From a virus: a DNA stretch of 58,414 nt. Below the pieces are notes generated by a model. The model was not told the origin of the DNA. It worked only from the letters and a program-made list of their open reading frames with translations, and made no database searches. Position 1 is the first letter of the stretch; each line of letters begins with the position of its first letter. The DNA lies in the IMG/VR virus record IMGVR_UViG_3300042882_000932, positions 1-58,414 of that record; one strand, written 5' to 3'. The position numbers were made by a program, and so were the translations under genes. Below are positions 12,043-37,016 of this stretch, one piece after another.

Positions 12043-15000
12043 ATGTCATCAACTACGCCACTAGAACACAGACTGCACAGGTCGCTTTACGACTCTGCAA
12101 GTATTGAGTTTACGGCGGCTGCATTTCCGCTGTTAGATTTTAATCTACCTGGGATGCCTATTGCGGGGCAGGATTTCGTAGCCCACGCCAACAACCTCGG
12201 CGACACGATTGACGTCGCTAAAGCGAAGAAAAAGAAAGAAGCGATTATTGGTGAAAAACTGATCGAGCTGTACCGCAAGGCTATGTATCAGTCTGATTTT
12301 GAAATGCCTGTCCTGTTGAAGGGCAAGGAGATCTTTGTTCGGTTTTTGCGCGGACACGTGTGGGGTGAAGACAACCAGCCTGTAGACGCGTACGGTCCTC
12401 GTCCGGCAAGGGTAATGGTAGTCGGTAAGATGCCCGGCAAAAATGAACAGTCACGCGATAAGGCCACGACCGGCCCGGGTATTGCCATCTTAAAACGCGC
12501 CTTCGCAGAAGTCGGGTTAGGTGAGGCTGAGTTTCGGGAGTGGTATGTCACGTTCGCGTGCAAGTTCAGTCCCCCGGATGAAGATATGACCGTGGTGCCG
12601 GCGGCCTGGATTAAAGACTGCTCTATTTTACTTGAGCAAGAAATACGGTATGTGCAGCCTGAGTACATTCTGTGTTTAGGCAACGAAGCCACAAAAGCGG
12701 TACTGGGCGTATCAGGGAGCGTAACGGGCCTTGGCGGGCGTGTAATTCCTCACAAGGTTTACGACCAGCACGGCGCAATTCGTGACATAAAAGTCATGCC
12801 GATTATGCACCCGGCGTACGTCGCCAGAAAACCCGAAGTCTACGAAGATTTCTGCGGGCAAGTCAGCCGGTTTAAAGCGATGCTCGAAGACCGGATCTAT
12901 TCGCACGAGGATATCGATCACGCGGATATTTACACCGAAGACGCACTCGTTGAAATGGTAAACGAGATGGTCTCGGACACGTCGCCCAACGCCAACATCA
13001 TCGCTGTCGACTGCGAATGGAACGGCGACCATCCCGGAGAGCCAAACGCCTATCTTCGGACAATTCAGGTGTCGAATAAAGATAGGTGGGCTCGAACGAT
13101 TGTGCTGCGCTATCAGGGCGGCGAAACAGCGTTTAAACCTGATCTTGCTGTTGTGACGCGGGAATTAAATCGGCTGCTCAAAAGCACACCGGAACGCCAC
13201 GTACGCTTAGGCGGGCACTTCCTCCGTGCCGACTTGCCGTGGCTAATGCATTTCGGCGTAGACGCCAGAGCAGAGTACGCCCCCGCCGAAGACCCAGACG
13301 AACGCATGCGCGGTGGTTGGGATACAAGTTTGATGTATCACGCCATTAACGAGTGCGCCCGTTACGGTCTTGATGAGTGTGTCATGCGGTTTACAACTGC
13401 ACCGACATACTGGGAGGAACTCGACAAGTGGAAAAAACAGCAGAAAACTGTGCACCGCCTAAAAGCCGACGAGTTTGGCTATGGCGACTGCCCGCCGCAT
13501 ATCTTGCATCCATACGCTAGTTACGACGCTGACGTAACGCGGCGTATTATGATGAAGTTCTTCGGTACCAACGGCACCGACGGCATGCTGTCGTGTGACG
13601 CCCACGGGCACGATTGCTGGTTGCCATATTGGACAGCACACAACGCGTCGCTGGCGTTTCTGGAAATGGAGTTGACCGGTTTAGAAATTGACCGCAACCG
13701 TGCGGACGAATTGACAACATTATTCATGAACACGCAAGACAGGCTGCTTGCAGAAATTCGTGAAGAGTTGAACTGGCCGGCGTTTAACCCGAAGTCGCAG
13801 CCTCAATTATCGGTTGCATTGTTTGGGCGTGAATTCGGGCTGCGGTATACGAACGCGCCAGACATCCCGGAAGACGCTAATACGCTCGACCTAAAGCCGG
13901 TGAAGACAACTGGAAAACGACCGGTGCTGTGGGCCGAGATGCATTGGCGTGGAATTGACACTGACACCGCCACTCCAAGCACAGATAAAGAAAGTCTGGG
14001 TATTCTGGGGCACATCAACTCGACCGCAGCAAAAATCCGTGACTACAAATTTACAAGTCAGGTTTTGCAGTCAGTACTCCGAAAGCCCTCGGCAACAGAC
14101 GAAGGCGTATTTGAAATGGACGAGAACGGGAATTACACGTACGAAAAGGGATTGGTCGGCTGTGTGCATAAAGACGGCAAAGTTCGTACGCACATGTTCC
14201 AGACCAAGGAAACTGGGCGTGCGTCTAGTTCTCGTCCGCCCCTGCAGAACCTTAGCTCACGGCGAGAAAACGATTACAAGCGCATTCTCGGGGCTGACAG
14301 GTACAAGCATCCAGTCAGGTCAATCTTGCGTGTGCCGGAGGGTTGCGTTGGTATCGAGACCGACCTTACAGGTGCTGAACTGGCGGTCCTCGCGTGGTTG
14401 GCACAAGACGCGAATATGATCGAACACGTTCGGCGAAACATTCTTCCCGAAAAGCATCCAGATCATTACGACATTCACAGCCAGCAGGCCGTCAAAACTT
14501 TTAACCTTCGCGATGTCGAGCCAACAAAACACGGGCTTGAGGCGGCAGGTAAAAAGGGAATGCGTATCGCGGCTAAAAACGTGAACTTCGGTATTCCGTA
14601 CGGCCGCGGCCCTGAAGCGATTGCCCGTCAATGCCGCGAGGAAGGTGTAGACGTTACGCCCGAAGATTGTCAGGCGATGATCGAGGCGTATTTCGACTCG
14701 TATCCAAAAACAAAAGACTTCCTCGCTGAGTGTCGTACGCGGTCGCAAGACCCAGGCTGGATTGTGGGGCCGTATGGTCGGTTTCGACGATTTGTCAGCA
14801 CGAATGACAGGGCCGTAAAAGGCGAACAAGAACGGCAAGCACAAAACTTTCCGATTCAAGGCGGTGTCGCAGATGCCGTGTCGATCGCCTTATTTAATTT
14901 TCTGCAGTACCGCGAGCAGCATCCAGATGTGCAGTATCAAATTACTTTGCAGATCCATGACGCTATCGTACTGACCGCGCCTTTTGAACATGCAGAGCGC

Positions 15001-18142: not shown

Positions 18143-18721
18143 ATGACAGCAAAAAAAGTTTCTCGGGTGTCGATTTCTTTTACAGCAGAAGAAATTGATT
18201 TTCTGGCGTGGTTAGTGGCCGAGGTACTGGGGTCTGATTACTCGGCGGCAGTAAAGACATCTGTCGCCGATAAGGTGGCAAAGGCTGCAGAACTTATCAC
18301 AGATATTAATTCTGCGGCGCAGGAACCAATTGTTGGCTTAAAAAGTTTTATGGACCTTGAGGCATTTCATAATGCAGTGACTAATTTAGAAGAAGAGTAC
18401 CCAACCTCGTGGCCCGACGGTTGCGAAATAGAGGGGCTGCGGCTTGTATGTACCTGCCCGGCGTGCCCCGAACAGTACGACGTCTTCGATTCAGCGGAAA
18501 AGCAAGTCGGTTACTTACGCCTGCGACACGGCACCTTCAGAGCCGACTACCCGGGCTGTGGTGGTGAAACTGTGTATCAAGTTAGCACAAAAGGTGATGG
18601 TGTTTTTTCGGACGATGAGCGGCAGCAGGAATTAACAAACGCAGTTAAAGCATTAAAACAAAGGATTGAAAAAAATGCGGTTTCAGGAAGTACAGCAAAA
18701 AGTTCTAGCATGGGCAACTGA
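18143..18721 (+). CDS. Conserved phage protein with Cys-rich C-terminal domain
   Basis: This 192-residue protein has AGGTGG at 18131-18136 before the ATG at 18143, one base after the recA stop. The N-terminal 90 residues are helical. The C-terminal part begins with C-T-C-P-A-C-P-E-Q-Y-D-V-F, then VGYLRLRHGTFRADYPGCGG, a pattern I recall from a widespread phage/bacterial domain of unknown function. The Cys residues may bind zinc. A final helix overlaps the MazG gene by 47 bases. Function unknown. Confidence 0.65.
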   Translation: MTAKKVSRVSISFTAEEIDFLAWLVAEVLGSDYSAAVKTSVADKVAKAAELITDINSAAQEPIVGLKSFMDLEAFHNAVTNLEEEYPTSWPDGCEIEGLRLVCTCPACPEQYDVFDSAEKQVGYLRLRHGTFRADYPGCGGETVYQVSTKGDGVFSDDERQQELTNAVKALKQRIEKNAVSGSTAKSSSMGN

Positions 18722-18980
18722 CAGGCAGATCATCCCAAACAGTAATCCGACGGCGCAGTTAATGAAAACTGTGTCCGAACTGGGAGAGCTTGCTGACGCC
18801 ACGCTAAAAGGCATCCCCGACGAAATCGAGGACGGCGTAGGTGACGTGTTAGTGACGCTCATCTTGTACTGTGCACTTTCCGGTATTGACCCCGTGCAGT
18901 GTCTTGAGGGTGCTTACAACACTATTAAAGACCGCAAGGGCACGCTGACTCCCGAAGGTATTTTTGTCAAAGAGGCGTAA
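18675..18980 (+). CDS. mazG: MazG-like nucleotide pyrophosphohydrolase
   Basis: This 101-residue protein has AAGGA at 18661-18665, 9 bases before the ATG at 18675. The all-alpha NTP-PPase motifs are present: SELGELADA (E35, E38) and EIEDGVGDVLVTL (E50, D53, D57), matching the E-x-x-E ... E-x-x-D metal-binding pattern. A single domain of this length is typical of phage MazG proteins, which hydrolyse NTPs/dNTPs or alarmone-type nucleotides. It sits at the end of the replication block, where nucleotide pool control is expected. Confidence 0.85.
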   Translation: MRFQEVQQKVLAWATDRQIIPNSNPTAQLMKTVSELGELADATLKGIPDEIEDGVGDVLVTLILYCALSGIDPVQCLEGAYNTIKDRKGTLTPEGIFVKEA

Positions 18981-30166: not shown

Positions 30167-32131
30167 TTGTCACAAATGCTCGGCCCTTCGTCGCAAGCTG
30201 GTTTTGGAACATTGGGCCGCGGCGTAATGTCCGATGAGCGGTTTCCAGACCCGTTCTGCGACGTCGCCAGCCTGTCGATGCCGGAAAGTATTCAGACCGC
30301 ATTGCGCTGGTGTGAGTACATCATGAACGCCAACGGACCGTACAGGCAGGCCGTTGACCGCGTCGTGTCCTACTTCATCACTGACATCGAAGTCAAAGAT
30401 GCTGGCGAAAATACTGTCGGTCGCGAAGAGAAAGAAAAGTTTCGTGTCTTTCTTGACGACACGCTCAGCATTAAAAACGTGCTTCATACCGTCGCCATGG
30501 ATTACATGACGTACGGCAACTCGTTTACAAGTTTGCTTATTCCGTTCCGGCGTTATTTGTCTTGCAATGGCTGCGGACTTGAAATGCCGCTGCGGAAAGT
30601 TCACGCAACCGCTAGTTGTAATTTTAAGTGGGAGAATTTTGAGTTTTACGCTTCGTGCCCTAACTGCAAGACGCACGGTAAGTGGCGCCATATTGACCGC
30701 CGGGCAGGCAATGATGACGGCATCAAAGTTAAACGATGGAGTCCGCACGAGATTGACATTCTTTGGGACCCGTACAGCACAGAGTGCACGTATGTCTGGA
30801 AGATCCCCGAAGACTATCGGAACATGATCAAGCAGGGCTACCTGCATTATTTAGACCACGCGAATTGGGAAGTCATTCAAGCCATTAAAGATGGTAAAAA
30901 CTTAATGTTCGACAAGGACGTTATTTTCCATCTTAAAGAAGACGCGCTCGCTGGCATGCGTAATCGCGGCTGGGGCATCTCACGCATCCTGACCAATTTC
31001 CGTGAGGCGTGGTATTACCAGATTTTAAAGCGATACAACGAAGCCATTGCACTCGATTACGTAGTGCCGTTCCGGGTTATTACGCCGGCACCAAAGGGTG
31101 GCGACCCCACATCGGGCGACCCAGTGCACACAATCAATCTCTCGAGTTTTTCTGCTCGCGTACAGTCAATGCTGCGAGCGCGGCGAAGTGACCCGGCACG
31201 CTGGAACGTGCTGCCGTTCCCTGTGAATTACCAGGCCCTTGGCGGCGATGCCAGTCAGTTAGCCCCCAAAGATTTAATCGACCAAGGTCTCGAGACTCTC
31301 TTGAAGTGCATCGGCATGCCTGTGGAGTTATTTAACGGCACGCTGACGTTGCAGGCGGCACCGACAGCCTTGCGGTTATTCGAAGCGAACTGGGGGCATT
31401 TACCGCATAACCTTAATCTTTTTCTCAACAAATTAGCGGACTCTGTTTCGCGCACGTTGTCTTGGGACCCGGTGGTTGTCAGGTTGCAACGCGTCACGCA
31501 CGCCGACGACCTTAATCGGCAGATGGCCAAACTGCAACTCATGCAGGGGGCGGCGATCAGCAAGACGACAGGCCTGGCAAGCGTTGGGCTGGATTACGAA
31601 GAAGAGACAAAGCGTATGCTGGATGAAGAACGTATCTACGCAGACGAGCAGCGACGCATGCAAGAAGAAATGCAACAGGCCGACCAGATGCAGGCTATGT
31701 CGCAGCCGGCCAGCATGCTCGCGGGCGTTGGCGATACTGGATCTGGTGCGACAGGTATGCCACAGGGCGGGGCACCTCCCGCAGGCGGTATGCCGCCGGG
31801 CGGCGCACCTGCACCGGCTGGTGGCGCACCGGCTATGCCCGGCACGCAGCCGAGTTCTGTGGATCAGTTTATTACGCAGCGTCAAAACTCGCCCAATGTG
31901 CCGCGGACGCCAGAAGAGTTGCAAGCACAGGCACAACTTATTGCTAATCAACTTCTGTCGATGCCCGAAGCACTCAAGGACTCCGAACTTATCAAGCTTA
32001 AACGGGCTGACAATATGATGCACTCGTTAGTGACGAGCATTATGGACGATATTCGTCAGCAGGCACGTACGCAGGGCGGCGCAATGGTTATGCAGCAGCA
32101 GTATGGGCAGGGCGGAGCGCCACCGCAGTAA
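30167..32131 (+). CDS. Portal protein
   Basis: This 654-residue protein has TAAGGA (30153-30158) 8 bases before a TTG at 30167. The next ATG (30176) would be 17 bases away, so TTG is the better start. The N-terminal region contains the portal-type MNANGPYRQAVDRVVSYFITDIEV followed by a long segment on a newly made monomer (YMTYGNSFTSLL). A zinc-binding insertion (CNGCGLEMPLRK ... YASCPNCKTHGKW), the stem region (LETLLKCIGMPVELFNG) and helical wing follow. The C-terminus has a Gly/Pro/Ala-rich linker near 525-560. It forms the dodecameric DNA gate of the head. No terminase or capsid gene lies next to it. Confidence 0.82.
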   Translation: MSQMLGPSSQAGFGTLGRGVMSDERFPDPFCDVASLSMPESIQTALRWCEYIMNANGPYRQAVDRVVSYFITDIEVKDAGENTVGREEKEKFRVFLDDTLSIKNVLHTVAMDYMTYGNSFTSLLIPFRRYLSCNGCGLEMPLRKVHATASCNFKWENFEFYASCPNCKTHGKWRHIDRRAGNDDGIKVKRWSPHEIDILWDPYSTECTYVWKIPEDYRNMIKQGYLHYLDHANWEVIQAIKDGKNLMFDKDVIFHLKEDALAGMRNRGWGISRILTNFREAWYYQILKRYNEAIALDYVVPFRVITPAPKGGDPTSGDPVHTINLSSFSARVQSMLRARRSDPARWNVLPFPVNYQALGGDASQLAPKDLIDQGLETLLKCIGMPVELFNGTLTLQAAPTALRLFEANWGHLPHNLNLFLNKLADSVSRTLSWDPVVVRLQRVTHADDLNRQMAKLQLMQGAAISKTTGLASVGLDYEEETKRMLDEERIYADEQRRMQEEMQQADQMQAMSQPASMLAGVGDTGSGATGMPQGGAPPAGGMPPGGAPAPAGGAPAMPGTQPSSVDQFITQRQNSPNVPRTPEELQAQAQLIANQLLSMPEALKDSELIKLKRADNMMHSLVTSIMDDIRQQARTQGGAMVMQQQYGQGGAPPQ

Positions 32132-32135
32132 CAAC

Positions 32136-33179
32136 ATGCGTGTCGGAATTCACACCCACTACTCCCACTGCGACCAGGCGTACTTCTGTGTGCGTCTTGT
32201 AGATTTTTTACGGGCGAACGGCGTCGAGTTCAGCATCTATTCTGAAAATGGGCCGGGCAAGTTACGCATTCCGTACGACAGCGCAGTAACGCACAAAGGG
32301 TTAACGCGTTACACTGATTGGGCTAAAAAACAAACAGCCATAATCTGGACACACGTGCCAAAAATAGAGCAAATAAATTTTGCAAATAGGCACGACAAGC
32401 TGACGGTGCTGGTGCCCATGTGGCAGGAAATGATGCCGCCGCTTAAAAAAGCCATGCAGCGGGCTGATACCGTAGTCGCGATGTCAGCCGAATGCCGCGA
32501 ACTGTTTAGTGACGTGTATAACGTTCGAGCAACGTCATACATTCCTTTTGACACCGGGCTGCCCGTCACAAAAAAAGATGCTCGTGTCAACGGGCGCCGG
32601 GTAAAGATTTTTTTACCTTGGTTTGACCGTAATGCTAGGTGTGCTCATAGCAACTTCTTATCTGATCTAGCGTATCTGTTTGAGCACATGCCTGACGCTG
32701 AATTAACCGTGGCAATTATGTCGAGCCGGTTTTCGCCAGCCATTGCCAAATTTTTTCAGGCTCTCGGCCAGCGTACAAATGGCCGTGTTAAATTAGTAAG
32801 AAACGTGCCATTCGCTAAAAGAGCCAGCCTGTACGGGGAGCACGATTTAACGCTGTTTCCGGCGGAATGTGACAACTATGGTTTTTGTGGTTTAACGTCA
32901 ATTAGTTGTGGTACGCCAGTTTTGTCATTTGCGGTTTCTCCGCAACTAGATTACGTTTATCCAAACGAGAACGGCGTTTTGGTGCGCACGAAAACCGATT
33001 ATGACGAAAACGGAGTGCCGCACGCCGTTCCCGACTACGACCCAATGACGGCAACATTACAAACATTAATCGCGGAACCGTGGCACATTGACAATATGAA
33101 TAATCGAGTAAATTACAACCTGGCAACACGTCGCAAGTCGTTCGAGGCTGGCTGGAAAAAAATACTCGGTATTGCATAG
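32136..33179 (+). CDS. GT-B glycosyltransferase (GT4-like)
   Basis: This 347-residue protein is read from the ATG at 32136 (MRVGIHTHYSHCDQAYF), 4 bases after the portal stop, with a poor RBS. The N-terminal Rossmann half ends in IWTHVPKIEQINF. The C-terminal donor half contains LTLFPAECDNYGF followed by CGLTSISCGTPVLSF, near residues 237-262. This matches the E-x(7)-E-type region of GT4 enzymes, although the second acidic residue is not obvious. It would transfer a sugar from a nucleotide donor. The acceptor is unknown; with other glycosyltransferases here, virion glycosylation is plausible. Confidence 0.75.
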   Translation: MRVGIHTHYSHCDQAYFCVRLVDFLRANGVEFSIYSENGPGKLRIPYDSAVTHKGLTRYTDWAKKQTAIIWTHVPKIEQINFANRHDKLTVLVPMWQEMMPPLKKAMQRADTVVAMSAECRELFSDVYNVRATSYIPFDTGLPVTKKDARVNGRRVKIFLPWFDRNARCAHSNFLSDLAYLFEHMPDAELTVAIMSSRFSPAIAKFFQALGQRTNGRVKLVRNVPFAKRASLYGEHDLTLFPAECDNYGFCGLTSISCGTPVLSFAVSPQLDYVYPNENGVLVRTKTDYDENGVPHAVPDYDPMTATLQTLIAEPWHIDNMNNRVNYNLATRRKSFEAGWKKILGIA

Positions 33180-33202
33180 TGGTGTGGCACATGGAGGTGC
33201 CG

Positions 33203-33970
33203 ATGAAAAAATCAGATGTGTTGTGTACGCAACGCACGATAGACTTCGCTAAACAGTACTACGGCCAGAGAAAAACTCTTTCTGGGCAAGCATTAATTGA
33301 CCACTGTATTTTGGTCGCCCGGCAAGCCGAGTTAATTGCGCAGAAGTTGTATCAAGACGTCCGGGTTGATTTTTTACCGGACAGCACAAAAGACAGCATT
33401 GCAGCTATTGTGCACGCGTCGCTGCTCCACGACGTAATTCAGGTCAGTGACTGTGCATTTGAAAATGTCGCGGAGACGACGACTGTGCAGATAGCGGCCA
33501 TGGTCGCCGACATAAGCCGCGACTTCCGGCTCGTCGAAACAAAGCGTGACATGGAATTCCGGGGGCGTGTCAGTCAGAGCCCAGTGGGCGCTCAAATCAT
33601 CGTGGCCGCTGATATTATTTGTACAGCCCGCGAAGCCGCCAAAGTATTAGAGGCGAATGGCATAACAGCCGTGCCCGCCGTCAAAAAAATCTTGACGCAA
33701 CTAGACGGCGACCTACTTGCAATCTACGCCGCAAACAGGTATTACATGCTGCGTTTGTATGTGCACGCTGCACGTAACATGCTTAACGACATAAGCCAAA
33801 AAATTAAAGAATGCAAACACCAGGCTAAGACGGCCCGGCACGCGGCAAACAGCATGCAACGGTTAAAAGAAAAACTGGCGGCAAAGGCTAATGATAAGCC
33901 AACTACGGTAAAAAAGAAAAGGAGTGTGCGGTATGCAAAAAAGCGAACTGCTGACGACGATTCTCAATGA
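33203..33970 (+). CDS. HD-domain protein, SpoT/MESH1-like (p)ppGpp hydrolase fold
   Basis: This 255-residue protein has GGAGG (33193-33197) 5 bases before the ATG at 33203. The HD metal ligands follow the SpoT order: H34 (LIDHCILVA), H76-D77 (ASLLHDVIQVS) and D137 (IIVAADIICTAREA). The AMVADISRDFRLVE strand-helix corresponds to the SpoT L-V-x-x-V-S segment. A C-terminal basic coiled stretch (MQRLKEKLAAKAND, TTVKKKRSVRYAKKR) is not part of the domain. It could hydrolyse alarmones or other nucleotides to counter host stringent or defence signalling. The exact substrate cannot be read from sequence. Confidence 0.7.
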   Translation: MKKSDVLCTQRTIDFAKQYYGQRKTLSGQALIDHCILVARQAELIAQKLYQDVRVDFLPDSTKDSIAAIVHASLLHDVIQVSDCAFENVAETTTVQIAAMVADISRDFRLVETKRDMEFRGRVSQSPVGAQIIVAADIICTAREAAKVLEANGITAVPAVKKILTQLDGDLLAIYAANRYYMLRLYVHAARNMLNDISQKIKECKHQAKTARHAANSMQRLKEKLAAKANDKPTTVKKKRSVRYAKKRTADDDSQ

Positions 33971-34253
33971 TTACGCCACCGAAAATAACAGCTCAGATGC
34001 TGACCGTGCAGCGCTAACGCAATTTTGCGATTACGCGGCGCAGTGGTTAATTAAGCATAGTTGCTTGGGTCTCGGGCACGCCGCGCACGGCTTGAATCTC
34101 AGATTCGCCGACGGCTCTGAGCTTATTCTTTTTTCAACAGCGCCTGACACTACGACGGCGGCTACTGATGTGCAAATTGGCGGTACAAGCACAAAACTTG
34201 CTGTGAATACGCCACAGGTTTTAAACACAAGTTTTCAGATTACCGGACGTTAA
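33933..34253 (+). CDS. Small hypothetical protein
   Basis: This 106-residue protein has AAAAGGAG (33917-33924) 8 bases before the ATG at 33933 and overlaps the HD gene by 38 bases. The N-terminal helix (LLTTILNDYATEN) is followed by a region with LIKHSCLGLGHAAHGLNLRF and beta strands (ELILFSTAPDTTT). It carries no recognisable motif. The overlapping frame suggests coupled expression with the HD protein. Confidence 0.6.
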   Translation: MQKSELLTTILNDYATENNSSDADRAALTQFCDYAAQWLIKHSCLGLGHAAHGLNLRFADGSELILFSTAPDTTTAATDVQIGGTSTKLAVNTPQVLNTSFQITGR

Positions 34254-34275: not shown

Positions 34276-34980
34276 GTGTTTGTCTGTTTAGAAGGCATCG
34301 ACGGCGCTGGCAAAAGCACACAAGCCAGAATGCTGGTGCAAAAATTAAATGATCTTGGCACGACGGCCGAACTTGTAGCAGATCCCGGCACGACACGCAT
34401 CGGCACGGCTATCCGGCAGATTCTTTTGCACAATGACGCCCCGATATCTAACGCGGCGCAGATGCTTCTTTTTTCTGCCGCACGCACTGAACTCGCCGAA
34501 CACATCAAACAGCGGTTATCTGAAAACGTTGTAGTGATTTGTGACCGGTGGCTGTTGTCGACGCTCGTGTATCAGGGCGAAATAAATCAGATTGACCATG
34601 ATTTTATTTTGTCTGTGTTTCGGCAGACATCTAATCTTTCTCCTGATCTTTGCGTTGTTTTAGATTTGCCACCAGAGGAGTCGGCAAAAAGAACGGGCCA
34701 GGGTCGCGACCGTTACGAGCGTGTTGATCACAAAACGCGCAGCAGAATGCGGGACGCCTATTTGCGTTTCTCAGGCTTTAGCCGCAAACAAGTCGCCGTG
34801 CCCGAGATCGCCAAGCACGGCCTGCATATTGTTAACGCTACGCTCCCGAGCGAGCGAATTCATAACAGTATTTTTAACGCGTATACCCGTGCCGCCGAGC
34901 GTCGCGGGAAAGATGGATCGATTACCACTGTAGAAAGGATCTACGATGACGACGGTTGCTGCAACACCGACGCGGCTTGA
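34276..34980 (+). CDS. tmk: Thymidylate kinase
   Basis: This 234-residue protein has a GTG start preceded by AAAGGA (34264-34269, 6-base spacer). The P-loop EGIDGAGKST lies at residues 6-15. The substrate-binding D-R-W motif is in VVICDRWLLSTLVYQGE near 91-107, and the LID region RTGQGRDRYE near 135-144. This is the usual dTMP kinase layout and length. It phosphorylates dTMP to dTDP for DNA synthesis during infection. It is followed by a 35-base overlap with the next gene. Confidence 0.9.
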   Translation: MFVCLEGIDGAGKSTQARMLVQKLNDLGTTAELVADPGTTRIGTAIRQILLHNDAPISNAAQMLLFSAARTELAEHIKQRLSENVVVICDRWLLSTLVYQGEINQIDHDFILSVFRQTSNLSPDLCVVLDLPPEESAKRTGQGRDRYERVDHKTRSRMRDAYLRFSGFSRKQVAVPEIAKHGLHIVNATLPSERIHNSIFNAYTRAAERRGKDGSITTVERIYDDDGCCNTDAA

Positions 34981-36035: not shown

Positions 36036-37016
36036 ATGACAGAAAAAAAGATTTCGGAACTGCCCGAAAAGCTGACGCCGATTTTAAATGACATTATTCC
36101 GCTTGTAGACACTCAAGACGCGGGTGGACTGGCGACAAAACGCACAACGTTATCGGCTATTGTTGCGTTAACTGGCGGTATTCCGTCTAGCGATAAGGGC
36201 GTGCCTAACGGCGTGGCGACGCTTAATAGTTCCGGCAAAGTCCCTACGGCGCAATTACCTGATATCGGTTTAGGTTCCACGGGGCCGTCTGGCCTTCAAG
36301 GGCTTCTAGGCTTACAAGGTATCACTGGCGTCACAGGAGCTACAGGCCCTGCCGGCGTTACTGGTGCTACAGGGTTTACCGGGCTAACCGGTCCGTCAGG
36401 TGCTAGCATTACCGGCCCAGTTGGCATTACTGGCACTACAGGGGCTACCGGGCCTGCCGGAGCGACAGGGGTTACTGGTGCTACAGGACTAACGGGTCCG
36501 TCAGGTGCTAGCGTAACAGGCCCGAGCGGCGCTACAGGTCCTGCTGGGGTCACAGGTGTTACTGGCGTAAGCGGCGTCAACGGTCCCACGGGTATCGGCG
36601 TAAGTGGCGTTACTGGTGTCACAGGTGCTACGGGCCCAGCTGGCGTTACGGGTGTCACAGGCCCAGTTGGCGCGACAGGCGTGACAGGCTTAAGTGCCGC
36701 AGACTCTATGTTTGAGTTTAACGTGACATTTTCCGGTGCGTCACCCGGCACTATTACAGGCCTACCAGCCGGGTGGTCATCAGCGATCTCTTCGAATGAC
36801 GTGACGATTACGCACACTGTCGGCAAAGAAGTTAAAGACGTTACTTATTGGGGTTACACCGCCGGTACAGACTTGTGGCACGCACGGTATCCGACATCCA
36901 CAAGCGAACTAACAATGACAGGAGCAACAAAAACGACAGCATTTAAAATTCGTATTTCGAATTCTGTCGTGTCATGCGATACGAACGGCACAGCGCGTAT
37001 TGTTTGTTTCTTCTAA
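36036..37016 (+). CDS. Collagen-like fibre protein
   Basis: This 326-residue protein begins [20 protein letters not shown] and [18 protein letters not shown], the usual virion-anchoring N-terminus of phage fibres (paralogous to the gene at 52579). Residues about 80-220 are uninterrupted Gly-X-Y triplets dominated by G-A-T, G-V-T and G-P-S/A, expected to form a collagen triple helix. A C-terminal globular tip of about 100 residues ([20 protein letters not shown] ... [15 protein letters not shown]) would trimerise or bind receptor. Thr in the Y position is typical of bacterial collagens such as BclA, where it is O-glycosylated. Confidence 0.85.

Follow-up and report, generated by a model that had tools for sequence, protein, structure and literature searches.

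The gene at positions 33203–33970 encodes a protein with the predicted fold of the SAH/MESH1 alarmone hydrolases, within a family whose catalytic residues have been lost or are eroding although a different region of the protein stays almost constant, so that it has probably been reused for a different, non-enzymatic job. We lean, somewhat beyond an even balance, towards a core, phage-specific SAH-fold protein without catalytic activity, which would bind a conserved partner and whose hydrolase function has probably been lost. The window, meaning the whole stretch of DNA analysed, is a virus record of 58.4 kb. Within it the gene belongs to a tight run on the plus strand, formed by portal, glycosyltransferase-like protein, SAH-fold protein, small ORF and thymidylate kinase, the last being two genes downstream of the SAH-fold gene. 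The features referred to are as follows:

18666–18980: MazG, confirmed
30176–32131, plus strand: portal protein at the upstream side of the conserved module, from tblastn and Foldseek
32136–33179, plus strand: glycosyltransferase-like protein, matches below Pfam cut-offs
33193–33197, plus strand: GGAGG, likely ribosome-binding site of the ATG at 33203, 5 nt upstream, read from the sequence
33203–33970, plus strand: SAH-fold HD protein, 255 aa, ATG start at 33203, ORF confirmed
33302–33304, plus strand: H34 codon, a metal ligand position occupied by H in 46/51 representatives
33428–33433, plus strand: H76-D77 codons of the HD motif, with H kept in 45/51 and D in 44/51
33440–33445, plus strand: codons of Q80-V81, site of the E-D pair of hydrolases, E-D kept in 0/60 family members
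33518–33580, plus strand: R106-S126, loop between predicted helices 95–104 and 114–124 plus the second helix, 13/21 positions invariant (51 representatives)
33611–33613, plus strand: D137 codon, a metal ligand position occupied by D in 40/51
33933–34253, plus strand: small conserved ORF, its start overlapping the 3'-terminal part of the SAH-fold gene
34276–34980, plus strand: thymidylate kinase (dTMP kinase), PF02223, 9.7e-37, control enzyme

The sequence-only reading of this DNA had described a SpoT/MESH1-like HD protein with the pattern H34 ... H76-D77 ... D137, encoded alongside dTMP kinase and with MazG elsewhere in the window: the residues were all found at these positions and both genes are confirmed. 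No family match was found for the small ORF, which accompanies the SAH-fold gene in related loci with 30–47% identity (copies identical to that of the window excluded). Directly downstream of the module, at 36036–37016, a predicted 326-aa protein has by eye collagen-like Gly-X-Y repeats and is perhaps a fibre protein. Scanning for promoters and terminators gave site numbers not above those in shuffles.

The AlphaFold2 model of the window protein (pLDDT 82.4) was computed from a 41-row alignment, made of the window and 40 of the 68 loci, picked by hand. Using Foldseek, the best match of this model was 3nqw (E 8.4e-5), and its top structural matches are SAH/MESH1 proteins, with VIA Z of 20.1 to 6yvc, 19.2 to 9chy and 19.1 to 3nr1. 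Further SAHs follow down to Z 17.8, a (p)ppApp hydrolase is found at Z 15.3, and the catalytic regions of SpoT and Rel rank after the SAHs, mostly with high rmsd. Other HD hydrolases, which share the HD fold and the H-HD-D ligands, score lower than the 20.1 of the best SAH (YpgQ 13.8, dGTPase 9.8, DatZ 9.4), and YfbR is not among the structural matches listed; lmo0812, an HD protein without function in its title, equals YpgQ at Z 13.8. The structure comparison that had been suggested as a check thus supports the proposed SAH/MESH1 fold. In comparison with the known SAH/MESH1 structures (6yvc, 3nr1, 3nqw, 5vxa), the likeness lies in the predicted fold, with Z 18.3 to 20.1, and in the H-HD-D positions of the window protein. 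The differences are the lack of the ED motif in the family, the partial loss of the ligands, a fixed block at residues 106–126, and about 55 extra residues in the window protein, a C-terminal helix and basic tail past the aligned part, which ends at model residue 199–201.

Kinship at the level of sequence is less evident. A phmmer search of the PDB with the window protein returned three entries at E≤10, all of them MESH1 orthologues (best E 0.0047), with the local alignment to MESH1 spanning residues 68–144. Its Pfam scores are both sub-threshold (HD 17.8 bits vs a cut-off of 22; HD_4 14.7 vs 27.2), and at E≤0.01 the HD family is matched by 27/41 family members and HD_4 by 13/41. NCBIfam yielded weak, scattered matches in three family members and nothing else. 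A second family member, L005, matches 3nqw at E 0.028, behind an unrelated RimM match at E 0.026. The family profile recovered no SAH from the PDB at E≤1, and hhalign of the family with the SAH of a related phage record, G005, aligned 13 columns with a probability of 2.6. These searches indicate that the resemblance to alarmone hydrolases exceeds chance but that the sequence kinship is thin, since the family profile found no PDB SAHs and the comparison with one SAH gave nothing: kinship is carried by the single-sequence matches of the window protein and L005, together with the fold. Weak matches of the C-terminal part, to the N-domain of seryl-tRNA synthetase and to a PHROG terminase small subunit, were read as helix noise.

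We have then analyzed the residues on which hydrolase chemistry depends. In the phmmer alignment, LLHDVIQVSD of the window protein is paired with LLHDVVEDTD of CG11900, which poises Q80-V81 at the E-D of the hydrolases. The HDxxED motif is hence incomplete (HDVIQV), with Q at the place of E65 of human MESH1, a correspondence that follows from the D66K entry 9chy, whose K comes directly after this position. Pooling 284 loci gave 65 proteins plus the window row, of which 62/66 rows are complete over residues 30–140 and 60 are distinct. The E-D pair occurs in none of these 60 proteins, N-V being found there in 45. The tetrad H34/H76/D77/D137 is intact in 43/60, the window included, and altered in 17: three of these have only D to E, and 14 carry a residue other than H, D or E at one position at least. 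On a tree of 51 rows built with the ligand and ED columns left out, the tetrad-broken state, seen in 12 rows, requires 5 changes, of which starred branches force no fewer than 4, and the D137 column needs 9. In addition, the window protein has T141 where CG11900 and MESH1 have N in the phmmer alignment, and among the 51 representatives this position is T in 45, S in 3, N in 2 and A in 1; the N of MESH1 presumably contacts guanine.

The thymidylate kinase encoded in the same loci provides a control for these variations. Its P-loop residues G7, D9, G10, G12, K13 and T15, as well as D90-R91, are present in 59/59 distinct proteins, and the P-loop and CDRW are kept in all 14 proteins from broken-HD contigs that reach this gene (14 of 17 do). 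In these contigs, residues that do serve catalysis thus remain unchanged.

A distinct picture resulted from the conservation of the remaining SAH-fold protein. Among 51 representatives 38 of the 255 columns are invariant and none of them is a ligand; ranked by entropy, the ligand positions come 67th, 76th, 79th and 129th of 255. Thirteen of the 38 invariant columns fall within the 21 residues R106-S126 and 12 lie before residue 106; others are Q131, C140, Q166, D168-L171, Y181, L183, R184, H188 and K202, with invariant residues at 166–171 and along the C-terminal helix. When 24 invariant positions were rechecked in 60 members, 21 were found in 60/60, K114 and Q131 in 59 and G169 in 58, in a family whose members are 45–69% identical to the window protein. 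Patterns resembling ETKRDME were employed in the first searches, and this biases the 106–126 block toward invariance; the search pattern alone does not make the block, however, as L167, the sole member met only via the portal, carries ETKRDAEFRGR together with the remainder of the block. Values of dN/dS (NG86) were 0.037–0.151 in nine intact pairs and 0.053, 0.054 and 0.075 in three broken pairs, with dS mostly saturated (>1 in 10/12 pairs with a value; three more broken pairs gave no dS). The low ratios in intact and broken pairs alike indicate that the gene is constrained with or without the tetrad.

In respect to these data, the strongest rival to a non-catalytic role is a different hydrolase activity among the 43 members with an intact tetrad, which would bind metal and act on a phosphate ester of another substrate or by a changed mechanism, a few lineages having lost the activity. 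The number of intact tetrads agrees with this, as do the match of YpgQ and such HD hydrolases to the model and the dTMP kinase of the module, which fits a nucleotide-related substrate. However, in conservation the ligand positions rank below dozens of other residues, the broken members are equally constrained, and the catalytic residues of thymidylate kinase are fixed in these contigs; on balance we regard this explanation as unlikely, although it deserves to be kept in mind.

The position of the gene was examined through the portal. The upstream protein has 26% identity over 71% to the annotated portal of Salmonella phage Arash (tblastn, E 6e-56), and the 50 Foldseek matches listed for its model are portals or neck, connector, vertex and tail structures; as the pLDDT of that model is 57, this fold search is support and not proof. 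A search with the portal alignment kept the best 80 of 147 relatives, of which 64 extend for 1800 bases or more past the portal and 16 end too early. Among these best 80 the SAH-fold gene lies downstream of the portal in 64/64 testable contigs, a test that is not fully independent, because the loci behind the portal alignment had themselves been reached via the SAH-fold gene and the contigs are mostly the same. The order portal, glycosyltransferase-like protein, SAH-fold protein, small ORF and dTMP kinase holds in the related loci listed, as far as each extends. The longest contigs with the gene reach 194–205 kb, the group being one of large uncultured phages. In the cultivated phages Arash and D69, which have a distant portal homologue, no HD gene is annotated behind the portal in the displayed stretches. 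The portals of L073 (3891–6923) and L082 (2296–5274) contain an in-frame insert of about 350 residues with a LAGLIDADG_3 match (6.8e-06 and 2.8e-06), that of L073 having also a sub-threshold intein splicing match, and the portals of L112 and L187 would have a similar insert by spacing or match start; the inserts are probably inteins.

A regulatory function is also conceivable, in which the protein would act as a decoy or regulator of the host stringent response, binding host Rel/SpoT or the ribosome via the helix 6–7 surface, without hydrolysis, and holding ppGpp synthesis in one state. The model would place the fixed block on the RelA loop described in PMC8012599 as governing the synthetase, and the synthetase domain PF04607 is present in 0/15 related phage records, so that such a partner would be the host's. 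However, a surface in contact with a host protein would be expected to vary with the host, and variation is almost absent here; the constant location within the portal module likewise suggests something else, and the loop correspondence is by helix order only. In view of how little the block varies and where the gene lies, we consider a decoy for host Rel improbable. The same low standing is given to a combined version, in which a free-standing pseudo-alarmone-hydrolase would be an obligatory part of the portal module and would set the host stringent response by binding Rel/SpoT or the ribosome without chemistry.

One scan of bacterial and archaeal genome contigs gave 33 pattern matches and no confirmed relative, and a cellular or prophage gene was set aside on this basis. 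Running tblastn on 50,697 phage records returned MT839687.1 as single match and no orthologue. This UNVERIFIED record, labelled Bacteriophage sp. (L287:1417-1908), was rejected as a phage isolate with an orthologue, as its ORF starts like canonical Rel (LLHDVIEDT) beside what is by eye a RecJ-like ORF; it appears to hold the start of a canonical Rel gene and looks like bacterial DNA. Within 15 related phage records, HD_4 has a separate match above cut-off in G005 (205 kb), at 14290–14595 with E 1.1e-12, and a second, sub-threshold match in G006 is the family gene itself. The G005 ORF (L138:1761-2387; G005:C1:14260-14886) encodes 208 aa with LHDVIEDV, the ED being aligned with that of MESH1 and SpoT: a separate SAH with intact HDxxED is thus carried by 1/15 records, and the presence of both proteins in G005 speaks for a different function of the family protein.

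Clearing of alarmones or defence nucleotides, as the sequence-only reading had proposed, is accordingly the least probable of the functions weighed. An active enzyme removing (p)ppGpp, (p)ppApp or the products of toxic synthetases during infection would agree with the SAH/MESH1 fold, with H-HD-D in the window protein and with the alarmone-type HD proteins predicted earlier in jumbo phages (PMC7824862). Contrary to this, E-D is missing from all 60 members, the window protein has T in place of N at position 141, ligands are lost repeatedly under constraint with 17/60 tetrads altered, and G005 has its separate SAH with ED. PMC13221220 describes MESH1-E65A, which carries the equivalent single change, as catalytically inactive, and E. 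coli RelA, whose hydrolase domain is without HDxxED, does not hydrolyse (PMC8012599). We have therefore set the active hydrolase aside as very unlikely on the ED and ligand data. Of the two observations named in advance as speaking against it, the absence of ligand residues is largely borne out; as to a closer match to another HD subfamily, YpgQ, dGTPase and DatZ score below the SAHs among the structural matches listed. A decaying pseudogene or a sequencing error is dismissed in view of the open frames, the low dN/dS, the recurrence of some broken forms in several contigs (L131–L135; L024/L025) and the intact dTMP kinase in 14/14 testable cases.

Under the preferred reading of a non-catalytic core protein, the fixed surface, placed from the model and not from a superposition, would bind an obligate partner, which is most likely encoded in this module too and acts at the portal vertex or in head assembly, and the long C-terminal helix with its basic tail may add a second contact, perhaps to nucleic acid. 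A precedent is the dead hydrolase domain of E. coli RelA, which PMC8012599 describes as kept as a regulatory module that controls the synthetase via the helix 6–7 loop; by helix order in the model, not superposition, the 106–126 block may be the counterpart of that loop. Against the preferred reading, H-HD-D is kept in 43/60 members including the window, which is more than expected of a useless site, the profile comparisons recovered no SAH kinship, the ETKRDME-like search patterns favour invariance of the block, and the portal test is partly dependent and covers the best 80 of 147 portal relatives only.

When compared with known systems, the RelA domain (PMC8012599) shares with the family an RSH hydrolase fold without HDxxED that is kept by selection, and the helix 6–7 loop; it is, however, a domain of a ribosome-bound synthetase, whereas the phage protein stands alone, with no synthetase domain in 15 related records. 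The HD-alarmone phosphodiesterases of jumbo phages resemble it in being HD proteins of alarmone-hydrolase type from large phages, yet examples such as BBI90576.1 are predicted in PMC7824862 to be active counter-signal enzymes, unlike the family here, the comparison being one by description. As that prediction dates from 2021, the idea of the sequence-only reading is not new in kind; in the open-licence PMC literature we found no phage-specific pseudo-SAH as a core gene.

Phage HD proteins of SAH fold are easily taken for alarmone-degrading counter-defence, and for this family, which probably keeps the fold and not the chemistry, such a reading would probably be wrong. The conversion of a signalling-enzyme fold into a core component of a phage can be studied here, as nature provides variants that have the metal site and others that lack it; the family also suggests a putative protein contact that is nearly unchanged among members 45–69% identical to the window protein.
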